This document shows positions 7,833 through 33,320 of a stretch of 39,634 bases of DNA, one piece after another; within the stretch, counting starts at the first letter, position 1, and the number at the start of each line of letters is the position of its first letter. This DNA is from a virus, in the IMG/VR virus record IMGVR_UViG_3300037459_000080, positions 1 to 39,634 of that record; one strand, given 5' to 3'. A program made the position numbers and the translations under genes. The notes below the pieces were generated by a model. That model did not search any database and was not told the DNA's origin. It saw nothing but the letters and a program-made list of their open reading frames with translations.

Positions 7833-8242
7833 TGAATAAAACTTTAGTAAAAGATTACGATTATGTAGATATAGACCACAAATACTACAAGTATAAGCTG
7901 TGTATCGAGCAATCTGCTATGACTGATATTACCGGTTTTGAGATCGACCACGATTATTTTATTTTAGATACAAACGGCATTTTAGTAATTCGCCGTGACT
8001 ATTGTTGGAATGGCTCTAGTGGCCCAACATGGGATACTGACAGCACAATGAGAGCTAGTCTATTTCATGATGCGTTATACCAGATGATGCGCGAAAAGCT
8101 TATATCGTTTGACTGGCGCTACATATCGGACAAAGTGTATCACCGTATATGCATAGAGGATGGTATGTGGCGTTGGCGCGCGTGGTGCCATTATAAGGCG
8201 GTTAGGATATTTGGGGCAAGCAGCGCACGGCCAGCTAACTAG
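7829..8242 (+). CDS. DUF1353 family protein (137 aa)
   Basis: Contains the DUF1353 signature: YCWNGSSGPTWDTD followed by RASLFHDALYQMMRE, that is the W-[DN]-G-x-S-G-P and HDALY motifs. DUF1353 proteins are common in phages close to lysis or tail genes; their function is not established. Start taken at 7829, where ATG overlaps the previous stop as ATGA; the ATG at 7832 is equally possible and better spaced from AGGTG (7821-7825). The C-terminal half is rich in W and R (DGMWRWRAWCHYKA). Confidence 0.75.
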   Translation: MMNKTLVKDYDYVDIDHKYYKYKLCIEQSAMTDITGFEIDHDYFILDTNGILVIRRDYCWNGSSGPTWDTDSTMRASLFHDALYQMMREKLISFDWRYISDKVYHRICIEDGMWRWRAWCHYKAVRIFGASSARPAN

Positions 8243-18933: not shown

Positions 18934-19376
18934 CTAACATTAACGACAATCAAGAACGTTATGAAGGTAGCTTCGGAGAAGCGGTAGAGAAGGCTGTGTC
19001 ATGCGAAGAGTTTAAGCAGTTTATTTACCCGCTGACTATTAAAGACGCCGCTAAGTTATTCGATAAGTCGGTTGTTTATCTCAAGAAGATCTCATCAGGT
19101 GAACGGTCGTTTAGTGACTTCGGCAAGACCAAGCAAGATGTGCTAAGCTTCCTCAAGACATCGCCAGACGCGGCAAAGTCGAGACAGCAGTTTAGGAATC
19201 AAGTGAGCTACAAGGAGTATGTTAGACTGATGGGGTTGGAGAAATATAAGTGTGTCTGCTGCTGTTATCCAGCGGCGCAAAAGATCTACAGCGTGCCACT
19301 GTGTGAAGGGTGCGTGAGTAAAGCGAAGAACCGTGTAATAGTGAAGAAGAAAAAAACAAGGAGTAAGAGAAGATGA
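18930..19376 (+). CDS. HTH-like N-terminus with Cys cluster, GTG start (148 aa)
   Basis: The GTG at 18930 lies after GGAGGTGGTGAG and overlaps the preceding stop, which supports it. A helical N-terminal part has TIKDAAKLFDKSVVYLKKIS, reminiscent of a helix-turn-helix (DAAKLFDKSVVYLKKI). The C-terminal part carries CVCCCY and CEGC, a possible zinc finger, and a strongly basic tail (KKKKTRSKRR). A DNA- or RNA-binding protein is plausible. The tail TRSKR comes from the start cassette of the next gene. Confidence 0.55.
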   Translation: MTNINDNQERYEGSFGEAVEKAVSCEEFKQFIYPLTIKDAAKLFDKSVVYLKKISSGERSFSDFGKTKQDVLSFLKTSPDAAKSRQQFRNQVSYKEYVRLMGLEKYKCVCCCYPAAQKIYSVPLCEGCVSKAKNRVIVKKKKTRSKRR

Positions 19377-20164
19377 GTGATGATAAAAATAACACCGGAG
19401 TCAGTAACACCGGAAACAGTAACACCGGAGACAGTAACACCGGAGTCAGTAACACCGGAAACAGTAACACCGGAGTCAGTAACACCGGATACAGTAACAC
19501 CGGAGTCAGTAACACCGGAAACAGTAACACCGGAGTCAGTAACACCGGATACAGTAACACCGGAGACAGGAACACCGGAGTCAGTAACACCGGAGACTGG
19601 AACACCGGAGTCAGTAACACCGGATACAGTAACACCGGAGACAGGAACACCGGAGTCAGTAACACCGGAGACTGGAACACCGGAGACAGGAACACCGGAG
19701 ACTGGAACACCGGAGACTGGAACACCGGATACTGGAACATGTGTAATAAAGAGACAGGTTTCTTTAATACTGAGCAGGCTAAAACTATAAGGGCATTTAA
19801 TAAAGATTGTGATTTAGAGTTATGGGAAGGCTTTGATAAACCTAGTTTTTTATACTTCAGATTAACTCAGTGGATTCCAGAGTCAGAAATGAGTGATCAG
19901 GAAAAATGTGATTTTGCCTCTTATAAAACTACTGGCGGATATCTTAAGAGATATGAGTATAAAGATGCGTTTCGGGCTTCGTATGAAGAAGCAAGTGACG
20001 AAGATAAGGCGCTTTTATTGGCTCTACCTAATTTTGACGCTGCTGTATTTTTTGAGATAAGCGGGATTGATGTTAATGAGATTAGCAAGAAAGATAAAGA
20101 GATTGCGGTATTGGAGGAGCAAGTTAAGGAAATGATGAAGAAAATTGAGGAGTTAAAAAAATGA
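19373..20164 (+). CDS. NTG pentapeptide-array protein with conserved phage C-terminal domain (263 aa)
   Basis: After MSDDKN come 23 uninterrupted units NTGxx (residues 7-121), where xx is VS, NS, DS, YS, DR, DW or YW; the first variable residue is V, N, D or Y only. This differs from the A(D/N)LXX repeats of Rfr-type pentapeptide proteins and is nearer to the NxG type. A C-terminal domain follows (about 122-245): DLELWEGFDKPSFLYFRLTQ, SYKTTGGYLKRYEYKDAF, LALPNFDAAVFFEISGIDV, then a coiled coil. I recall this domain behind similar repeats in other phage proteins; its function is unknown. ATGA overlap with MazG gene. Confidence 0.75.
   Translation: MSDDKNNTGVSNTGNSNTGDSNTGVSNTGNSNTGVSNTGYSNTGVSNTGNSNTGVSNTGYSNTGDRNTGVSNTGDWNTGVSNTGYSNTGDRNTGVSNTGDWNTGDRNTGDWNTGDWNTGYWNMCNKETGFFNTEQAKTIRAFNKDCDLELWEGFDKPSFLYFRLTQWIPESEMSDQEKCDFASYKTTGGYLKRYEYKDAFRASYEEASDEDKALLLALPNFDAAVFFEISGIDVNEISKKDKEIAVLEEQVKEMMKKIEELKK
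19391..19735 (+). repeat. 23 x 15-bp tandem array encoding NTGxx
   Basis: Unit AACACCGGAGTCAGT and variants. Only five base positions vary, giving GTC/AAC/GAC/TAC and AGT/AGG/TGG codons. Units 4-7 (19436-19495) and 8-11 (19496-19555) are an exact 60-bp tandem duplication. Units 10-14 (19526-19600) and 15-19 (19601-19675) are an exact 75-bp tandem duplication. Array growth by slippage or unequal recombination is the simplest reading. Confidence 0.95.
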
Positions 20165-20745: not shown

Positions 20746-20754
20746 ACTCCCTAG

Positions 20755-20811
20755 CCCCGACCTAGACTCCTCGCAGGTTTTGCCCTTCCTGCATCTAGGC
20801 GGGGTTTTTTT
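20755..20811 (+). terminator. Intrinsic terminator with long two-part stem
   Basis: CCCCG (20755-20759) and CCTAGA (20761-20766) pair with TCTAGG (20794-20799) and CGGGG (20800-20804); an inner stem GCAGG/CCTGC (20773-20777, 20788-20792) caps it; then TTTTTTT at 20805-20811. It ends the operon from promoter copy B before the pseudopilin cassette. Confidence 0.85.
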
Positions 20812-20817
20812 GTGCCG

Positions 20818-20843
20818 TTACAATAGTCCATATCAATTATAAT
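20818..20843 (+). promoter_or_regulatory. Possible promoter of pseudopilin cassette
   Basis: A perfect TATAAT lies at 20838-20843 between the terminator and the gene at 20893. The -35 region is weak (GTTACAA nearby at non-ideal spacing). A promoter is needed here because the preceding terminator isolates the cassette, so this is the best candidate. Confidence 0.35.
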
Positions 20844-20892
20844 CATTATTCTATTAGGTCTGCTGATATCTCTATAACTAACGGAGATATAT

Positions 20893-21366
20893 ATGAGACG
20901 AAATAATTTTACATTGATGGAAATGGTAGCAGTTATCGCTGTTACATCATTCCTATTGGTAATGACGATTAACGTAATGAAGACAGATCCAAGTAAAGCG
21001 CAGTTATCTAGATTAGGTGGTGCTTGCCAGTTCTCATCTGCTAAGGCCGCCAAAGAGCGCAAGAATGTCATTGTCGAATTTGACGGTGTTGACTTCATAG
21101 CGTCATATGTTAACGACTCAGGAGTGAAGACCGTAATAAAGCAGTTCACTATTAACGGCAAAGTCGAAGCTAAGATGGAGAAGGACGGCAATGTAATAAC
21201 ATCTTATAGCGTTACTCCACAGGGCACTATAGGCGGTGGCGGAGCTGGTGTGATATTCAAGGTTAGGAAGATAGGCGATACACAAGCATTGTTCTTCACC
21301 GTTAACGGGTTTACATCCAGAGTATTCTATTACGATACTAACGGTGATGAGATAACATCATGGTAA
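20893..21366 (+). CDS. GspH/FimT-like pseudopilin-type protein (157 aa)
   Basis: Starts with a class III prepilin signal: MRRNN, then FTLMEMVAVIAVTSFLLVM, with F6 as +1 and the conserved glutamate E10 at +5, leading into a hydrophobic helix. The residue at -1 is Asn, not the usual Gly. After the helix, LGGACQFSSAKAAKERKNVI and VEFDGVDFIASY resemble GspH/FimT minor pseudopilins (helix with AxxxA, then beta-rich domain). The C-terminus is beta-type (FFTVNGFTSRVFYYDTNGDE). It would enter the inner membrane and be a substrate of the host prepilin peptidase, perhaps joining a host pilus or type II secretion pseudopilus. RBS ACGGAG. Flanked by terminators. Confidence 0.75.
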   Translation: MRRNNFTLMEMVAVIAVTSFLLVMTINVMKTDPSKAQLSRLGGACQFSSAKAAKERKNVIVEFDGVDFIASYVNDSGVKTVIKQFTINGKVEAKMEKDGNVITSYSVTPQGTIGGGGAGVIFKVRKIGDTQALFFTVNGFTSRVFYYDTNGDEITSW

Positions 21367-21551
21367 GGTTTTTTAACTGCTTGGTTGATGATGCTCATTG
21401 GATTGTGTATCCATGCGGACAGTCGGTTATATTCTACGGGTTGTGTACCGAGGGTTTTCCTGTTAAGACTACATTGGACGCCTTGCTGAGGGAGGAATAT
21501 CATGGTACTGTAGAGGAGGTAACTCCAGAAAGCGACGGTTTTCTGAGTTGA
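21360..21551 (+). CDS. Small protein coupled to the pseudopilin-like gene (63 aa)
   Basis: Starts within the last codons of the pseudopilin-like gene (7-bp overlap), so the two are probably co-translated. Hydrophobic/aromatic first half with three cysteines (FFNCLVDDAHWIVYPCGQ, FYGLC) and an acidic tail (YHGTVEEVTPESDGFLS). No membrane helix is clear. No family recognised. A terminator follows 20 bp after its stop, so the cassette has only these two genes. Confidence 0.55.
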   Translation: MVRFFNCLVDDAHWIVYPCGQSVIFYGLCTEGFPVKTTLDALLREEYHGTVEEVTPESDGFLS

Positions 21552-21571
21552 ATCGTTAGTTCCTCCGTTAG

Positions 21572-21603
21572 GTCCGCTCATCGTCGTGAGCGGACTTTTT
21601 TTT
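21572..21603 (+). terminator. Intrinsic terminator after pseudopilin cassette
   Basis: A perfect 9-bp stem (GTCCGCTCA with TGAGCGGAC) closes loop TCGTCG and is followed by TTTTTTTT at 21596-21603. Confidence 0.92.
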
Positions 21604-21718
21604 ATCCATACAACAAATTTCATATACAAAATAACTTTTTACTATTGTATAAGCTTGGTGTTAGTCGTACCTATCTTGAGTTAATAACTGCAAATCGTAA
21701 ATAAAAGGACGATACACA

Positions 21719-22000
21719 ATGAGTGCGAACCCGCTAAGTAAGGATTTTAGTAATAATACTAAAGGCCTATCCTCCCCTGCTTCAAGGCATCAATTAGTGC
21801 CATCAAGCACACAAATATTATGGTCTACATCATCACCAGCTCCAAGAGCTATACGATGTGATGCATCTGGTGTAGTATCACTTAAAGACGCCAATGGTAT
21901 ATCTGTGCAATATAATGTTTTGCACTCTGAAGTATTGCCTGTTGAGAGCTTTACAGAGTTAGAATTAAGCACAAATATCGCCGTTCAGTTATGGTGGTAG
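21719..22000 (+). CDS. Spike-base-like small structural protein (93 aa)
   Basis: After a disordered start, the segment from about residue 40 (PRAIRCDASGVVSLKDANGI, then SVQYNVLHSEVLPVE, ending TNIAVQLWW) follows the pattern of small phage structural proteins annotated as spike base: a value strand, a G-V-V strand, an LP turn, and a final I-x-x-x-W strand. The weak similarity, and the spike gene two ORFs downstream, support a role in attaching that spike. RBS AAAAGGACG. A monocistronic-looking unit begins after the terminator at 21603. Confidence 0.55.
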   Translation: MSANPLSKDFSNNTKGLSSPASRHQLVPSSTQILWSTSSPAPRAIRCDASGVVSLKDANGISVQYNVLHSEVLPVESFTELELSTNIAVQLWW

Positions 22001-22001
22001 T

Positions 22002-22139
22002 ATGCTAAGTATTAATAGAATATCACTTAAAATAAAGACTACATTTTCAGCTATACGATCAACGTTCTCATTATGGCTTGATGATGGTAGTGGCGCAATA
22101 AATAACCCTTGGAACGATTCGGACACTTGGAGCGAATAA
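22002..22139 (+). CDS. Small protein before the spike gene (45 aa)
   Basis: ATG at 22002, one base after the previous stop region, stop at 22139 just before the spike ATG. The front is basic and hydrophobic (SINRISLKIKTTFSAIRSTF), the end is rich in W, N, D (NNPWNDSDTWSE). The ending resembles the linker-type tails W-N-D-S-x-x-W seen in small tail proteins. Probably a structural adaptor; not recognised. Confidence 0.5.
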   Translation: MLSINRISLKIKTTFSAIRSTFSLWLDDGSGAINNPWNDSDTWSE

Positions 22140-22140
22140 C

Positions 22141-23367
22141 ATGGCACAAACTACATATAATGATGGTGACCCACTTAGTACAGTTAGAGCTGTAATAAAC
22201 GGCAACGCCAATGATGCTCAGAGTAAATTAGTTGATCAGGTGGCTATTAATACATTGGCCGATTTATCTAGTTTTTTGGTATCTGGTACTTATGAGCTGC
22301 CTTCTGGAACTTATTATTTTAACGCTCCTGTTGATTTTGGAACGGCTGATATACTTCTAACTGATTTAGACGGATGTTATGATATTCGCACAAGTTGCAT
22401 AGCTCAGCTTGATTACTCAGGAGTTACCCCTTTTATTGCTTCCGGTAACACTGGGCAAGTTATTACATTTGCACCTTATCGAGTATCAACGCCTAATGCA
22501 CTTGTTTTTGATGGTGATGGATTTGTTGGCAATAGTTTTATTAGTGACTTTGGTATATTTGTTGGTTGTAAAGAGATGGTCAGACTGACAGGGTGGTCGT
22601 TTTTTACTGTTGATGCTTTTGCAGGTGTTGCCTGTGAGAAGGGTGTAACTCTAACTGATGTTGCTAATATTAACCTCGCTAAGCCGCAGTGGAATCTAAG
22701 CTTATCTAATGGTGAAGCTTTTATTAATCTTATTGGTGCATCATCTGGACAGATGATAGCCGGAGATATAAATTCACAGCCGTCTTCAAGTGACTTCTTT
22801 TTTAATTTTGATGCTACATGGGGAGGTCATGCCTCTATTGTTGGCGGCGCTCATCAGACGGGCGGCGGTCTATTCTTTAAGGGTTCGAGGAATCAAGAAG
22901 ATGTAGATATTGAGGTCCTAGGAGTTACAGAAGTGCCTAACTCTCAAGCCAAGGTCAAGGGTTATATTGCCGAGGGTGACGAAGCATTGACGACTATAGT
23001 AACTCAGGATGTGCCTGTGGTTGTCGCTGGAACTTGGACTAATACAATTAACAAGAGGTTTAGTTTCGATGCCGCCGGAAAAATAACTTATCTAGGCCAT
23101 GAAACTTTAGTATTTCCTATTACTGCTAAGTTACAAGCCACGCCAGCGAGTGGCAGTAATAGAGAGTATGAATTTCATTTCAGAGTCAACGGAACTACTA
23201 TTGATCCGGCCTCAAGGGATGTAATTAGAGCCGACGCAGGGAACCCCGCTAAAGTGATTATTATAACTGAGCTTGAATTGAACGAGAACGATTATGTGGA
23301 GATAGTTGTAGCTTCTACAAGCTCGACTGTTAATGTAACAGGTGAAGCGGCAACAGTTATCATCTAA
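22141..23367 (+). CDS. Second receptor-binding / tailspike protein (408 aa)
   Basis: The N-terminus (TYNDGDPLSTVRAVINGN) is the attachment-type start common to phage spikes and fibers. Residues about 50-260 are rich in G, S, F and D with a repeating beta pattern, as in right-handed beta-helix spikes. From about 275 (YIAEGDEALTTIVTQD) a C-terminal jellyroll-like part follows with YEFHFRVNGTTIDP and NENDYVEIVVAS, resembling C1q/TNF-like trimer tips. It probably binds a surface glycan or protein as a second adsorption factor. Unlike the large fiber at 3776, it lies in the middle region between its own terminators. Confidence 0.7.
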   Translation: MAQTTYNDGDPLSTVRAVINGNANDAQSKLVDQVAINTLADLSSFLVSGTYELPSGTYYFNAPVDFGTADILLTDLDGCYDIRTSCIAQLDYSGVTPFIASGNTGQVITFAPYRVSTPNALVFDGDGFVGNSFISDFGIFVGCKEMVRLTGWSFFTVDAFAGVACEKGVTLTDVANINLAKPQWNLSLSNGEAFINLIGASSGQMIAGDINSQPSSSDFFFNFDATWGGHASIVGGAHQTGGGLFFKGSRNQEDVDIEVLGVTEVPNSQAKVKGYIAEGDEALTTIVTQDVPVVVAGTWTNTINKRFSFDAAGKITYLGHETLVFPITAKLQATPASGSNREYEFHFRVNGTTIDPASRDVIRADAGNPAKVIIITELELNENDYVEIVVASTSSTVNVTGEAATVII

Positions 23368-29437: not shown

Positions 29438-30216
29438 TGCCTAGACCAACCAACGAGCAGGCAGATAGAGCTTTTGAATCTAATCTAAGGCGCCAAGAGT
29501 CGATACTTGAGCGCCAACTCAATCAGAACTTTAACCAGCTCTCAAAAGATATACAGCGACTAATGGAGTCGTTTGATATTGCAGGGGCAGAGTCTGCTGT
29601 ATCCCTTAATGATATCGTATTACAGCAAATCTTGCTTGATGCGTATGAACGTGGCAATCGTCAAGGATCACGAATGGCCGCACGTGATCTAGAAGAGGAC
29701 GAGAGCTTGGTAGAAGAGGCCGCATTGCTGGCTTTGTTGCTTTGGCGGTCAAGCACTGCTGATAGAGTATCGAAGGAGATTAACCGGACAACGAGGAAGG
29801 TGTTCGATAAGATACTAGACCGGACTAGAAGCGATCTAACTATACGAGACGCGGCAGGACAGATATTGAGCAGTCCGACCAATGAGGAGTTATCCAAGGA
29901 AGTAGCAAAGCGAACTAAGGCCGAAAATAAGCGGCGTAGTGGAACTATAGCAACTACCGAGTCTCAGCGTGGAACTCAGGAGGGGGCTAATCAAGCAGGT
30001 ATTGAAGTACAGCAGAAAGTCCAGAAAACATGGCGCTCTCAGGGCGATCGACGTGTAAGGCCTACGCATAGAGCGGCTAATGGGCAGACTGTGGCGATGG
30101 ATGAGGTATTTAGTGTTGGTAGGGGGAAAGGAAGATTCCCCACTGACAGTATGTTGCCTAGTGAGGAAGCTGTGGGTTGTAGGTGTTATTTAAGACTTAA
30201 AAAAGTTCCTCTTTAG
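29437..30216 (+). CDS. Phage head morphogenesis protein, MuF/SPP1 gp7-like (259 aa)
   Basis: The C-terminal 80 residues contain the MuF domain signature: KTWRSQGDRRVRPTHRAANG, FSVGRGKGRFPTDS, and the ending GCRCYLRLK. The N-terminal 170 residues are helical and basic (RRQESILERQLNQNFNQL, SDLTIRDAAGQI). These proteins are minor capsid components injected or packaged with the DNA, coupled to the portal. The 3' end overlaps the convergent HNH gene by 4 bp. Confidence 0.88.
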   Translation: MPRPTNEQADRAFESNLRRQESILERQLNQNFNQLSKDIQRLMESFDIAGAESAVSLNDIVLQQILLDAYERGNRQGSRMAARDLEEDESLVEEAALLALLLWRSSTADRVSKEINRTTRKVFDKILDRTRSDLTIRDAAGQILSSPTNEELSKEVAKRTKAENKRRSGTIATTESQRGTQEGANQAGIEVQQKVQKTWRSQGDRRVRPTHRAANGQTVAMDEVFSVGRGKGRFPTDSMLPSEEAVGCRCYLRLKKVPL

Positions 30217-30689
30217 CCGCCACACCCATATTCACCATGAAGATTATTTGAAGCCTCGACATATACTTTATGTGCCTCCTTGGGGCATGTGAAGTAACCG
30301 AGGAATATAACTTTCTTATCAATGCCAATCCTTGCCATATATTTTCCTGCTTTCTTATCCCAACTCACCCCCTTATATCCAGATTTGCTTTTTCTATTAA
30401 TCCTACGATTCATTTGATTTTGTGATTTGGTAACAGTTCTTAGATTCTCTCTTCTGTTATCAAGTGAATTCCTATTTATATGGTCAACAAATTTATCTGG
30501 GTGATTCATTATAACTCTATGCATGGCATGTGATGTCCTCTTATCCTCTAATTGGATATTTCTCACAGCGTAGTATGACTTTGTGCATTTTGACCACCTA
30601 GCATACCATTTGAATTGATTTAACTCATCATACATATCATCACTAACTATAGCGAACTGCCCTTGCGTTAACGGAATTAACTTACTCAT
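30213..30689 (-). CDS. HNH homing-type endonuclease with AP2 domain (158 aa)
   Basis: HNH motif at about 53-94: HAMHRVIMNHP, FVDHINRNSLDNRRENLRTV, with H57, D69-H70 and N82 in the usual positions. An AP2 DNA-binding domain follows (about 102-154): SGYKGVSWDKKAGKYMARIG, FLGYFTCPKEAH. This domain pair is typical of selfish free-standing homing endonucleases in phage genomes. It lies on the minus strand inside the head operon, at the edge of the antisense island. A structured terminator-like RNA lies directly upstream. RBS GAGGCA. Confidence 0.92.
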   Translation of the reverse strand: MSKLIPLTQGQFAIVSDDMYDELNQFKWYARWSKCTKSYYAVRNIQLEDKRTSHAMHRVIMNHPDKFVDHINRNSLDNRRENLRTVTKSQNQMNRRINRKSKSGYKGVSWDKKAGKYMARIGIDKKVIFLGYFTCPKEAHKVYVEASNNLHGEYGCGG

Positions 30690-32522: not shown

Positions 32523-32722
32523 TACTTCACTCCTTTTTTATTTCTAATTATTCTTCGGCCCTCACTCAAGCTATTATCACATTCACCATTCATCTTCTCG
32601 CGGATAATTGCCGACACGCTAACACCTTGTTGATCAGCTAGTTTTTTCCATCTCCGCTTTTCATCCACATAACAGCGAACTTCGAATCGTTCCAGCTTGG
32701 CTTTGCTTTTGTTTTTATTCAT
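32522..32722 (-). CDS. Ribbon-helix-helix-like protein of antisense island (66 aa)
   Basis: RFEVRCYVDEKRRWKKLADQ followed by GVSVSAIIREKMNGE has the strand-helix-turn-helix order of RHH/Arc-type DNA-binding proteins, with a basic N-terminus and tail. It could be the repressor of its own operon and perhaps bind TGTACGTACA, the palindrome at the operon promoter (inference; the RHH-like protein at 12616 is the other candidate). Overlaps the Imm-5-like gene by 8 bp. Confidence 0.6.
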   Translation of the reverse strand: MNKNKSKAKLERFEVRCYVDEKRRWKKLADQQGVSVSAIIREKMNGECDNSLSEGRRIIRNKKGVK

Positions 32723-33260
32723 TAAGTAACTCCAGTAGTTTAATTTCTAGTTTCTTTTTAAATTCTTTTTTCGCATCAGCACCATAAGCAGCATCAACAG
32801 CAGAAGAAGCAGCAGCAGAAGCAGCACCATAAGCACCATAAGCAGCAGCAACAGCAGAAGAAGCAGAAGAAGCAGCAGCATAAGAAGCAGCAGCATAAGA
32901 AGCAGCAGAAGCAGCACGTTTAAATTTAATTAACTCATCAATTTTTATTTCACCAGCAATGTATTTTTTGGTAGCCTCAATGCACTCCCTTACTCTTTTG
33001 TCATCAGGATATTTCTTTTCGTAAATACTTAGTGATGATTCAGCACAAAATAAAGCTATCTGCTGATATACTTTTTTACTGCACTCGGTCGTTGCCCTCA
33101 ATGCCCAAATCGTGTCATCAATATCATTAGATTTAATAATATCTGATAGAGGGATTTTTTCATCACCACCGAAGTTCGAGCCGACGAATTTTAGAACCTT
33201 CTTAAATCCTAATTGACAGGCTGTTTCCTCTCTTAGTTTATTTATTGTTGTGTATAACAT
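32715..33260 (-). CDS. Imm-5-like alanine-rich protein (181 aa)
   Basis: Start at 33260: AAGGAGTAGAT lies just before this ATG, whereas the upstream ATGs fall inside the promoter. Residues 51-104 match the widespread putative immunity protein family (Imm-5-like): WALRATTECSKKVYQQIALF, YEKKYPDDKRVRECIEATKK, then YIAGEI. An A/S/Y repeat (116-162; AASAASYAAASYAAASSASS and following) and a basic helical tail complete the protein, also usual for the family. Function in phages is unknown. First gene of the antisense operon after promoter copy D. Confidence 0.7.
   Translation of the reverse strand: MLYTTINKLREETACQLGFKKVLKFVGSNFGGDEKIPLSDIIKSNDIDDTIWALRATTECSKKVYQQIALFCAESSLSIYEKKYPDDKRVRECIEATKKYIAGEIKIDELIKFKRAASAASYAAASYAAASSASSAVAAAYGAYGAASAAASSAVDAAYGADAKKEFKKKLEIKLLELLNE
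32776..32912 (-). repeat. GCA-type codon repeat in the Imm-5-like gene
   Basis: A run of AGCAGC/GCAGAA-like triplets (plus strand) that codes the A/S/Y repeat. Trinucleotide arrays like this change length easily by slippage, always in frame. A shorter similar tract is in the gene at 31708-32013. Confidence 0.7.
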
Positions 33261-33291
33261 ATCTACTCCTTTGTTTAATAAATACATATCA

Positions 33292-33320
33292 ACTTTACTT
33301 GCTTGTACGTACATAATCAA
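33292..33320 (-). promoter_or_regulatory. Palindrome-spacer promoter, copy D (minus strand)
   Basis: On the minus strand TTGATT (33320-33315), 17-bp spacer, TAAAGT (33297-33292). TGTACGTACA occupies 33313-33304 with the same 7-base offset. It drives the antisense island, which reads against the head genes. Confidence 0.72.

Follow-up and report, generated by a model that had tools for sequence, protein, structure and literature searches.

A GspH/FimU-type minor pseudopilin encoded by a moron-like phage gene

Does a phage truly encode a subunit of a bacterial filament, and if so, what would it gain by doing so? The question is raised by a short cassette in a viral contig of 39,634 bases, the whole of which was analyzed here (hereafter, the window). 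The initial annotation described a GspH/FimT-like pseudopilin in a two-gene, terminator-bounded, moron-like unit, considered it unusual for a phage, and took the residue preceding the cleavage site as a hint at the host. The contig ends in a 127-base direct terminal repeat, indicating that the genome is complete and circularly permuted, and a tape-measure-like open frame is split by both window ends. Genes for terminase (26806), portal (28178), prohead protease (33445), and the major capsid protein (34087) are present, along with genes for a primase-helicase, ERF, RusA, and MazG; no tRNA or Rfam RNA was found in the window. The pseudopilin gene lies between the MazG region and a spike-base gene. 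Directly after the cassette, positions 21719-23367 encode this spike-base protein (NF048002, 28.5 bits with a cut-off of 28) and a spike whose C-terminal part is conserved and common to other viral contigs. Elsewhere in the window, a protein of NTGxS/NTGDW repeats (19373-20164, plus strand) is 57% identical in the related phage contig G971, and its repeats keep the opposite strand open at 19222-19740 (minus strand). A homing-endonuclease-type HNH/AP2 protein (30213-30689, minus strand) adjoins a Mu F-like head gene and has a relative near the terminase in G971.

The pseudopilin gene (20893-21366, plus strand) has GGAG just 5′ of its start and encodes 157 residues beginning MRRNNFTLMEMVAVIAVTSFLLVM. 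A class III prepilin signal is encoded at 20893-20976 (plus strand), in which the short basic leader MRRNN is followed by FTLMEMVAVIAVTSFLLVM, with predicted cleavage before Phe6, Asn at −1, Phe at +1, Glu at +5, and a hydrophobic helix up to about residue 28. The F[ST]LxE motif occurs only once in the window when all six frames are checked. Pfam N_methyl (PF07963) matches the protein at E 9.6e-5, its 18.6 bits falling below the curated cut-off of 21.2, and a phage relative (L137/G972) exceeds this cut-off with 24.1 bits. The FTLMEM signal with Glu at +5 and a hydrophobic helix, as first described, is therefore confirmed. The classical prepilin consensus has Gly at −1, which is absent from the window protein. 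Since Gly occupies −1 in just four of 41 sampled Verrucomicrobiota prepilins, however, Asn at this position is compatible with processing in hosts of this kind.

Recognition of the body of the protein required profiles rather than single sequences. With the window protein alone as query, neither viral nor genome contigs nor 50,697 phage records yielded anything related, and phage relatives were found after a profile had been made with bacterial homologs; because they came only through this profile search, the pseudopilin would otherwise count as a singleton. Short patterns were uninformative, as the DNA pattern for NFTLMEM gave 76 stretches in 84,980 genomes and FTLMEM(V/I)A gave four matches in viral contigs, none of them a prepilin. 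A tblastn search with a generic prepilin peptide returned no phage, probably through masking of the peptide by the low-complexity filter, given that PHROGs does contain pilin families. With Pfam, PF12019 (GspH) gave no match at E≤10 and nothing else meaningful was found beyond N_methyl, so that of the two models proposed for checking the annotation, N_methyl matched below its cut-off and GspH gave no match. NCBIfam gave sub-cut-off matches only, the best being Verru_Chthon cassette protein D, with ComGC and ComGD also matched. TIGR01708 weakly matches four of the six phage members (best E 3.8e-5), and the cut-offs of the GspH models are missed. Nevertheless, the window protein aligns over its full length with both phage and chromosomal relatives, and once the N-terminal helix is removed, its body still reaches 29.0 bits with a profile built from the relatives, compared with 12.8 for the best shuffle (0 of 2000 as good). 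Homology is thus not confined to the N-terminal helix.

The predicted fold leads to the same family. An AlphaFold model of the window protein, built from the six phage sequences at low confidence (mean pLDDT 58), has a helix-helix-beta layout, with a long N-terminal helix packed on a GspH/FimU beta domain. In Foldseek, four FimU chains rank first (E 1.1e-4, probability 1.00). A second structural aligner run against the PDB places FimU (4ipu, Z 11.9) ahead of EpsH (2qv8, Z 10.7), XcpH (9a1f, Z 9.8), E. coli GspH (2knq, Z 8.9), and FimT (7qyi, Z 8.4). Matches at Z≥8 are exclusively GspH, FimU, or FimT; PAK pilin comes next at 4.5, and no unrelated fold exceeds 3.0. The low model confidence qualifies these matches, but the gap to unrelated folds is wide, and the model-independent sequence test agrees. 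A single-sequence AlphaFold model (pLDDT 64), which yielded lipocalin/OspA-like chance matches, was discarded. The window protein is therefore a GspH/FimU/FimT-type minor (pseudo)pilin by fold and remote homology; the GspH/FimT-like body first proposed is borne out by the fold match, the full-length alignments, and the body-only profile, but not by PF12019.

Among cellular proteins, the best homolog is found in genome G242 (E 3.9e-8), within a sample of 289 genomes from the GTDB phylum that contains an Akkermansiaceae genome, Verrucomicrobiota; the best values are E 4.0e-4 in 283 Planctomycetota genomes and E 2.3e-3 in 288 Pseudomonadota genomes. Four of the six genomes in the order of G242 carry the relative, in each case as the first of consecutive prepilin-like genes. 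Loci that are long enough contain four such genes, the last one encoding 847-894 residues at the GspK position, and in genome G123 the cluster is preceded by secretin and T2SSF genes. Pfam GspH matches two of the four chromosomal relatives of this nearest order, one of which, the L108 protein, passes the gathering cut-off of 21 bits with a score of 24.1. The H-I-J-K-type gene order, the secretin and T2SSF neighbors, and the L108 score together identify the chromosomal relatives as H-type minor pseudopilins. The window protein also has a conserved C-terminal motif of the V(N/K)xFT(G/S)(K/R) type (FTSRVFYY, codons at 21310-21333, plus strand) that is common to the phage and chromosomal GspH-type relatives. 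FimT-like DNA binding was considered and set aside; in the relatives the motif reads FTGK or FTGR, the same as in H-type proteins. In a tree with long branches, the six phage proteins group with the H protein of G242 (support 91/95), and a topology that places all phage proteins in one clade is compatible with the data (p-AU 0.28).

The residue at −1 points in the same direction. In a sample biased by having been drawn by similarity to an Asn-bearing query, although neighboring genes agree, Gly occupies −1 in 4 of the 41 prepilins from Verrucomicrobiota, in 10 of the 17 from Planctomycetota, and in all five from Pseudomonadota, and Asn is the commonest residue in Verrucomicrobiota (9 of 41). 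The GTDB Verrucomicrobiota include the Lentisphaeria. The initial annotation had associated Asn at −1 with Lentisphaerota and related PVC bacteria, and this link is upheld by the rarity of Gly and by the best homolog in Verrucomicrobiota. Judging from these sequence features, the −1 pattern and the homology gradient, the host probably belongs to the Verrucomicrobiota/Lentisphaerota. A host search with the portal, half of the window DNA, and a major capsid protein profile turned up neither a near prophage nor a clear spacer match. The numerous DNA matches at 32773-32916 stem from an Ala-rich repeat gene. This gene (32715-33320, minus strand) encodes an Ala/Ser/Tyr-rich protein above the Pfam cut-off for Imm5_like (40.8 bits with a cut-off of 25), and its repeat region has DNA matches of 70-78% identity in numerous genomes from the class to which G242 belongs.

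Profile searches returned the phage contigs L136, L137, and L138 first, then L146 and L148. All five belong to the wider group of the window phage, and tail genes are common to all six. L136 comes from G971, a sister of the window phage with conserved synteny, in which the protease is 76%, the capsid protein 64%, the terminase 50%, and the portal 48% identical. One phage relative aligns over its full length with the window pseudopilin at 30% identity. In all six phages the pseudopilin is intact, beginning with an FT[LM]xE core and ending with V(N/K)xFT(G/S)(K/R), and the alignment has invariant F, T, E, and L columns. Conservation of this kind argues against a host gene that was captured recently and has no function, a reading which the failure of single-sequence searches to find relatives might have suggested; intact copies in six divergent phages, together with the coding-type codon pattern of an N-terminal extension described below, largely refute it and leave it the least probable of the explanations considered.

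The position and architecture of the gene vary within the group. In L137, L138, L146, and L148 it lies antisense between relatives of the window tail genes 2607 and 3776; in both the window and G971 this slot spans just some 60 bases. In G971 the gene follows the terminase small-subunit region. The same four copies (L137:7824-8369, L138:7833-8384, L146:6333-6890, and L148:9833-10435) carry an extension of about 55 residues, which contains two hydrophobic helices and is fused in frame before the prepilin signal. This extension is coding, as third codon positions are its least conserved. A two-helix leader is unlike the known short prepilin leaders and might prevent normal processing. In L136, a 32-codon, one-helix open frame (MYEIWFYMVLHLIALFGAVFVSICFLVDEVTA) at about 7899-7997 overlaps the pseudopilin start by ATGA. 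Separately, an unrelated 67-kb phage contig encodes a prepilin with a zinc-ribbon-like N-terminal part (L150:24-479).

The cassette itself is flanked by two intrinsic terminators on the plus strand. The one on the 5′ side (20753-20813) has a stem at 20753-20806 (−26.4 kcal/mol, z −3.7) followed by T7, and the one on the 3′ side (21570-21605) has a stem at 21570-21597 (−18.9 kcal/mol, z −5.0) followed by T8, the z-scores comparing folding energy with that of shuffles. The two strong terminators first described are accordingly real. The probable promoter proposed with them is not confirmed: no convincing sigma-70 promoter is well placed between 20805 and 20893, and promoter-like sites are no commoner than in shuffles. 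The proposed two-gene cassette holds in the window, where a 63-residue open frame of no recognized family (21360-21551, plus strand) overlaps the 3′ end of the pseudopilin gene by 7 nt; in the five further contigs the pseudopilin gene recurs but this partner has no counterpart, which places it outside the core unit. A single gene that takes three positions within one phage group, where it is antisense or terminator-bounded, is moron-like. The moron-like reading is thereby retained, on the flanking terminators and the differing position among sister phages, including the antisense placement in four, and without the promoter sought at 20805-20893.

What the protein does may be considered against this background. 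We judge it moderately probable that this moron-encoded pseudopilin is matured by the host peptidase, joins the tip of a host filament, and alters or blocks that filament, most likely against superinfection. In such a process, the pseudopilin would be made in the infected or lysogenic cell and inserted into the inner membrane, where the host prepilin peptidase would remove the short leader. The phage subunit would then replace, or compete with, the host H-type subunit at the tip complex of either a type IV pilus or a type II-secretion-like pseudopilus. With the filament altered or capped, other phages using it would most likely be unable to attach. The processing, assembly, subunit replacement, and anti-superinfection role that we infer here each go beyond the family assignment. 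Temperate phages gain most from excluding superinfection, and no integrase was seen among the window-phage proteins covered by a partial scan. The spike genes adjoining the cassette could bind something other than a pilus, which counts against a role in pilus exclusion.

The most serious rival holds that the protein joins the complex that initiates the tip, fails to sustain its extension, and so shuts off the pilus or type II-like secretion, whether to keep out other phages or to halt secretion while the infection runs. Its standing comes from the two-helix fusion in four relatives, as this extra membrane domain could trap the protein in the membrane. The window protein is also just 22-28% identical to host-type H proteins and, at 157 residues, shorter than their 181-190, and there are precedents in Tip and Aqs1, which shut off type IV pili via PilB (PMC12826054). 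Retention of the C-terminal motif and the whole core over deep divergence fits continued GspH-like packing, and we regard this rival as possible rather than probable. Somewhat more doubtful still is a version that would define a distinct class of filament effector, in which the fused two-helix domain could hold a GspH-type pseudopilin at the assembly platform and so trap tip initiation. If true, a membrane-held pseudopilin would be a mechanism unlike the subunit swapping of P-FimU, and the T2SS/T4P-like filament of uncultured Verrucomicrobiota/Lentisphaerota would be a phage battleground.

It is unlikely that the pseudopilin scaffold has been reused for a membrane protein of infection or lysis that never enters a filament, such as an inner-membrane exclusion protein. 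The two-helix domain in L137, L138, L146, and L148 and the separate one-helix frame in L136 would suit such a protein, but Glu at +5 and FT[LM]xE are kept in six of six phages, and a protein neither processed by the peptidase nor packed into a filament would have no need of them. The adjoining spike-base and spike genes, and the location within the tail operon in four relatives, could suggest a minor tail or spike protein with a hydrophobic N-terminal anchor; this is very improbable, as the gene is antisense to the tail genes in those four and terminator-bounded in the window, and both fold and signal are of the inner-membrane pseudopilin type. Replacement of the host tip subunit, or competition with it, remains the reading we favor.

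The description of such a gene as unusual for a phage is partly right, given that some families of phage pilins, and one case with a function, are already known. The literature searched contains one phage minor pilin of known function, from Pseudomonas. New here are the occurrence in a separate phage group, the assignment to the H-type subfamily, the mobility in position, and the fusion to a membrane domain. That another phage group has kept this fold, in mobile locations and with two architectures, points to tip swapping or poisoning as a wider phage strategy. To our knowledge, very little is known about filaments as phage receptors in Verrucomicrobiota/Lentisphaerota, and phage pseudopilins are candidates for testing which filaments act in this way.

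Among known systems, the Verru_Chthon cassette protein D (TIGR02596) is the best NCBIfam model (E 3.3e-4, residues 6-63) and is also frequently matched by the nearest chromosomal relatives of the window protein. However, the score of 20.8 bits is far below the cut-off of 70, and cassette genes A-C were not seen in the phage. With GspH (EpsH, XcpH; PF12019, TIGR01708), the protein shares the fold (Z 8.9-10.7), the prepilin signal, and a conserved C-terminal hairpin, whereas the phage proteins fall below the model cut-offs and stand alone without I, J, K, and G genes. Tip of phage D3112 and Aqs1 of DMS3 are phage proteins that target the type IV pili of the host and keep out further pilus phages (PMC12826054), but these are small PilB ATPase inhibitors and not pilin-like. 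The closest parallel is P-FimU, which is expressed by lysogens of the Pseudomonas phage JBD68. It takes the position of host FimU in the type IV pilus and is believed to keep similar phages out without loss of pilus function (PMC12826054). The gene that fits the published P-FimU is jbd68_10 (L161, KY707339, 8677-9318), named a hypothetical protein in GenBank and of unknown function in PHROGs (phrog_11596). Both are single genes for phage-encoded GspH/FimU-type minor pilins with an FTLxE prepilin signal. They differ in phage group and sequence family, with Gly at −1 in JBD68 and Asn in the window, and the nearest cellular relatives of the window protein are H-type subunits of Verrucomicrobiota pseudopilin operons. 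JBD68 shows no antisense or terminator-bounded placement and no two-helix fusion of the kind found in the relatives. The window protein has no match to phrog_11596 (E 0.011 for L146), and thus plausibly works like P-FimU from outside that family.
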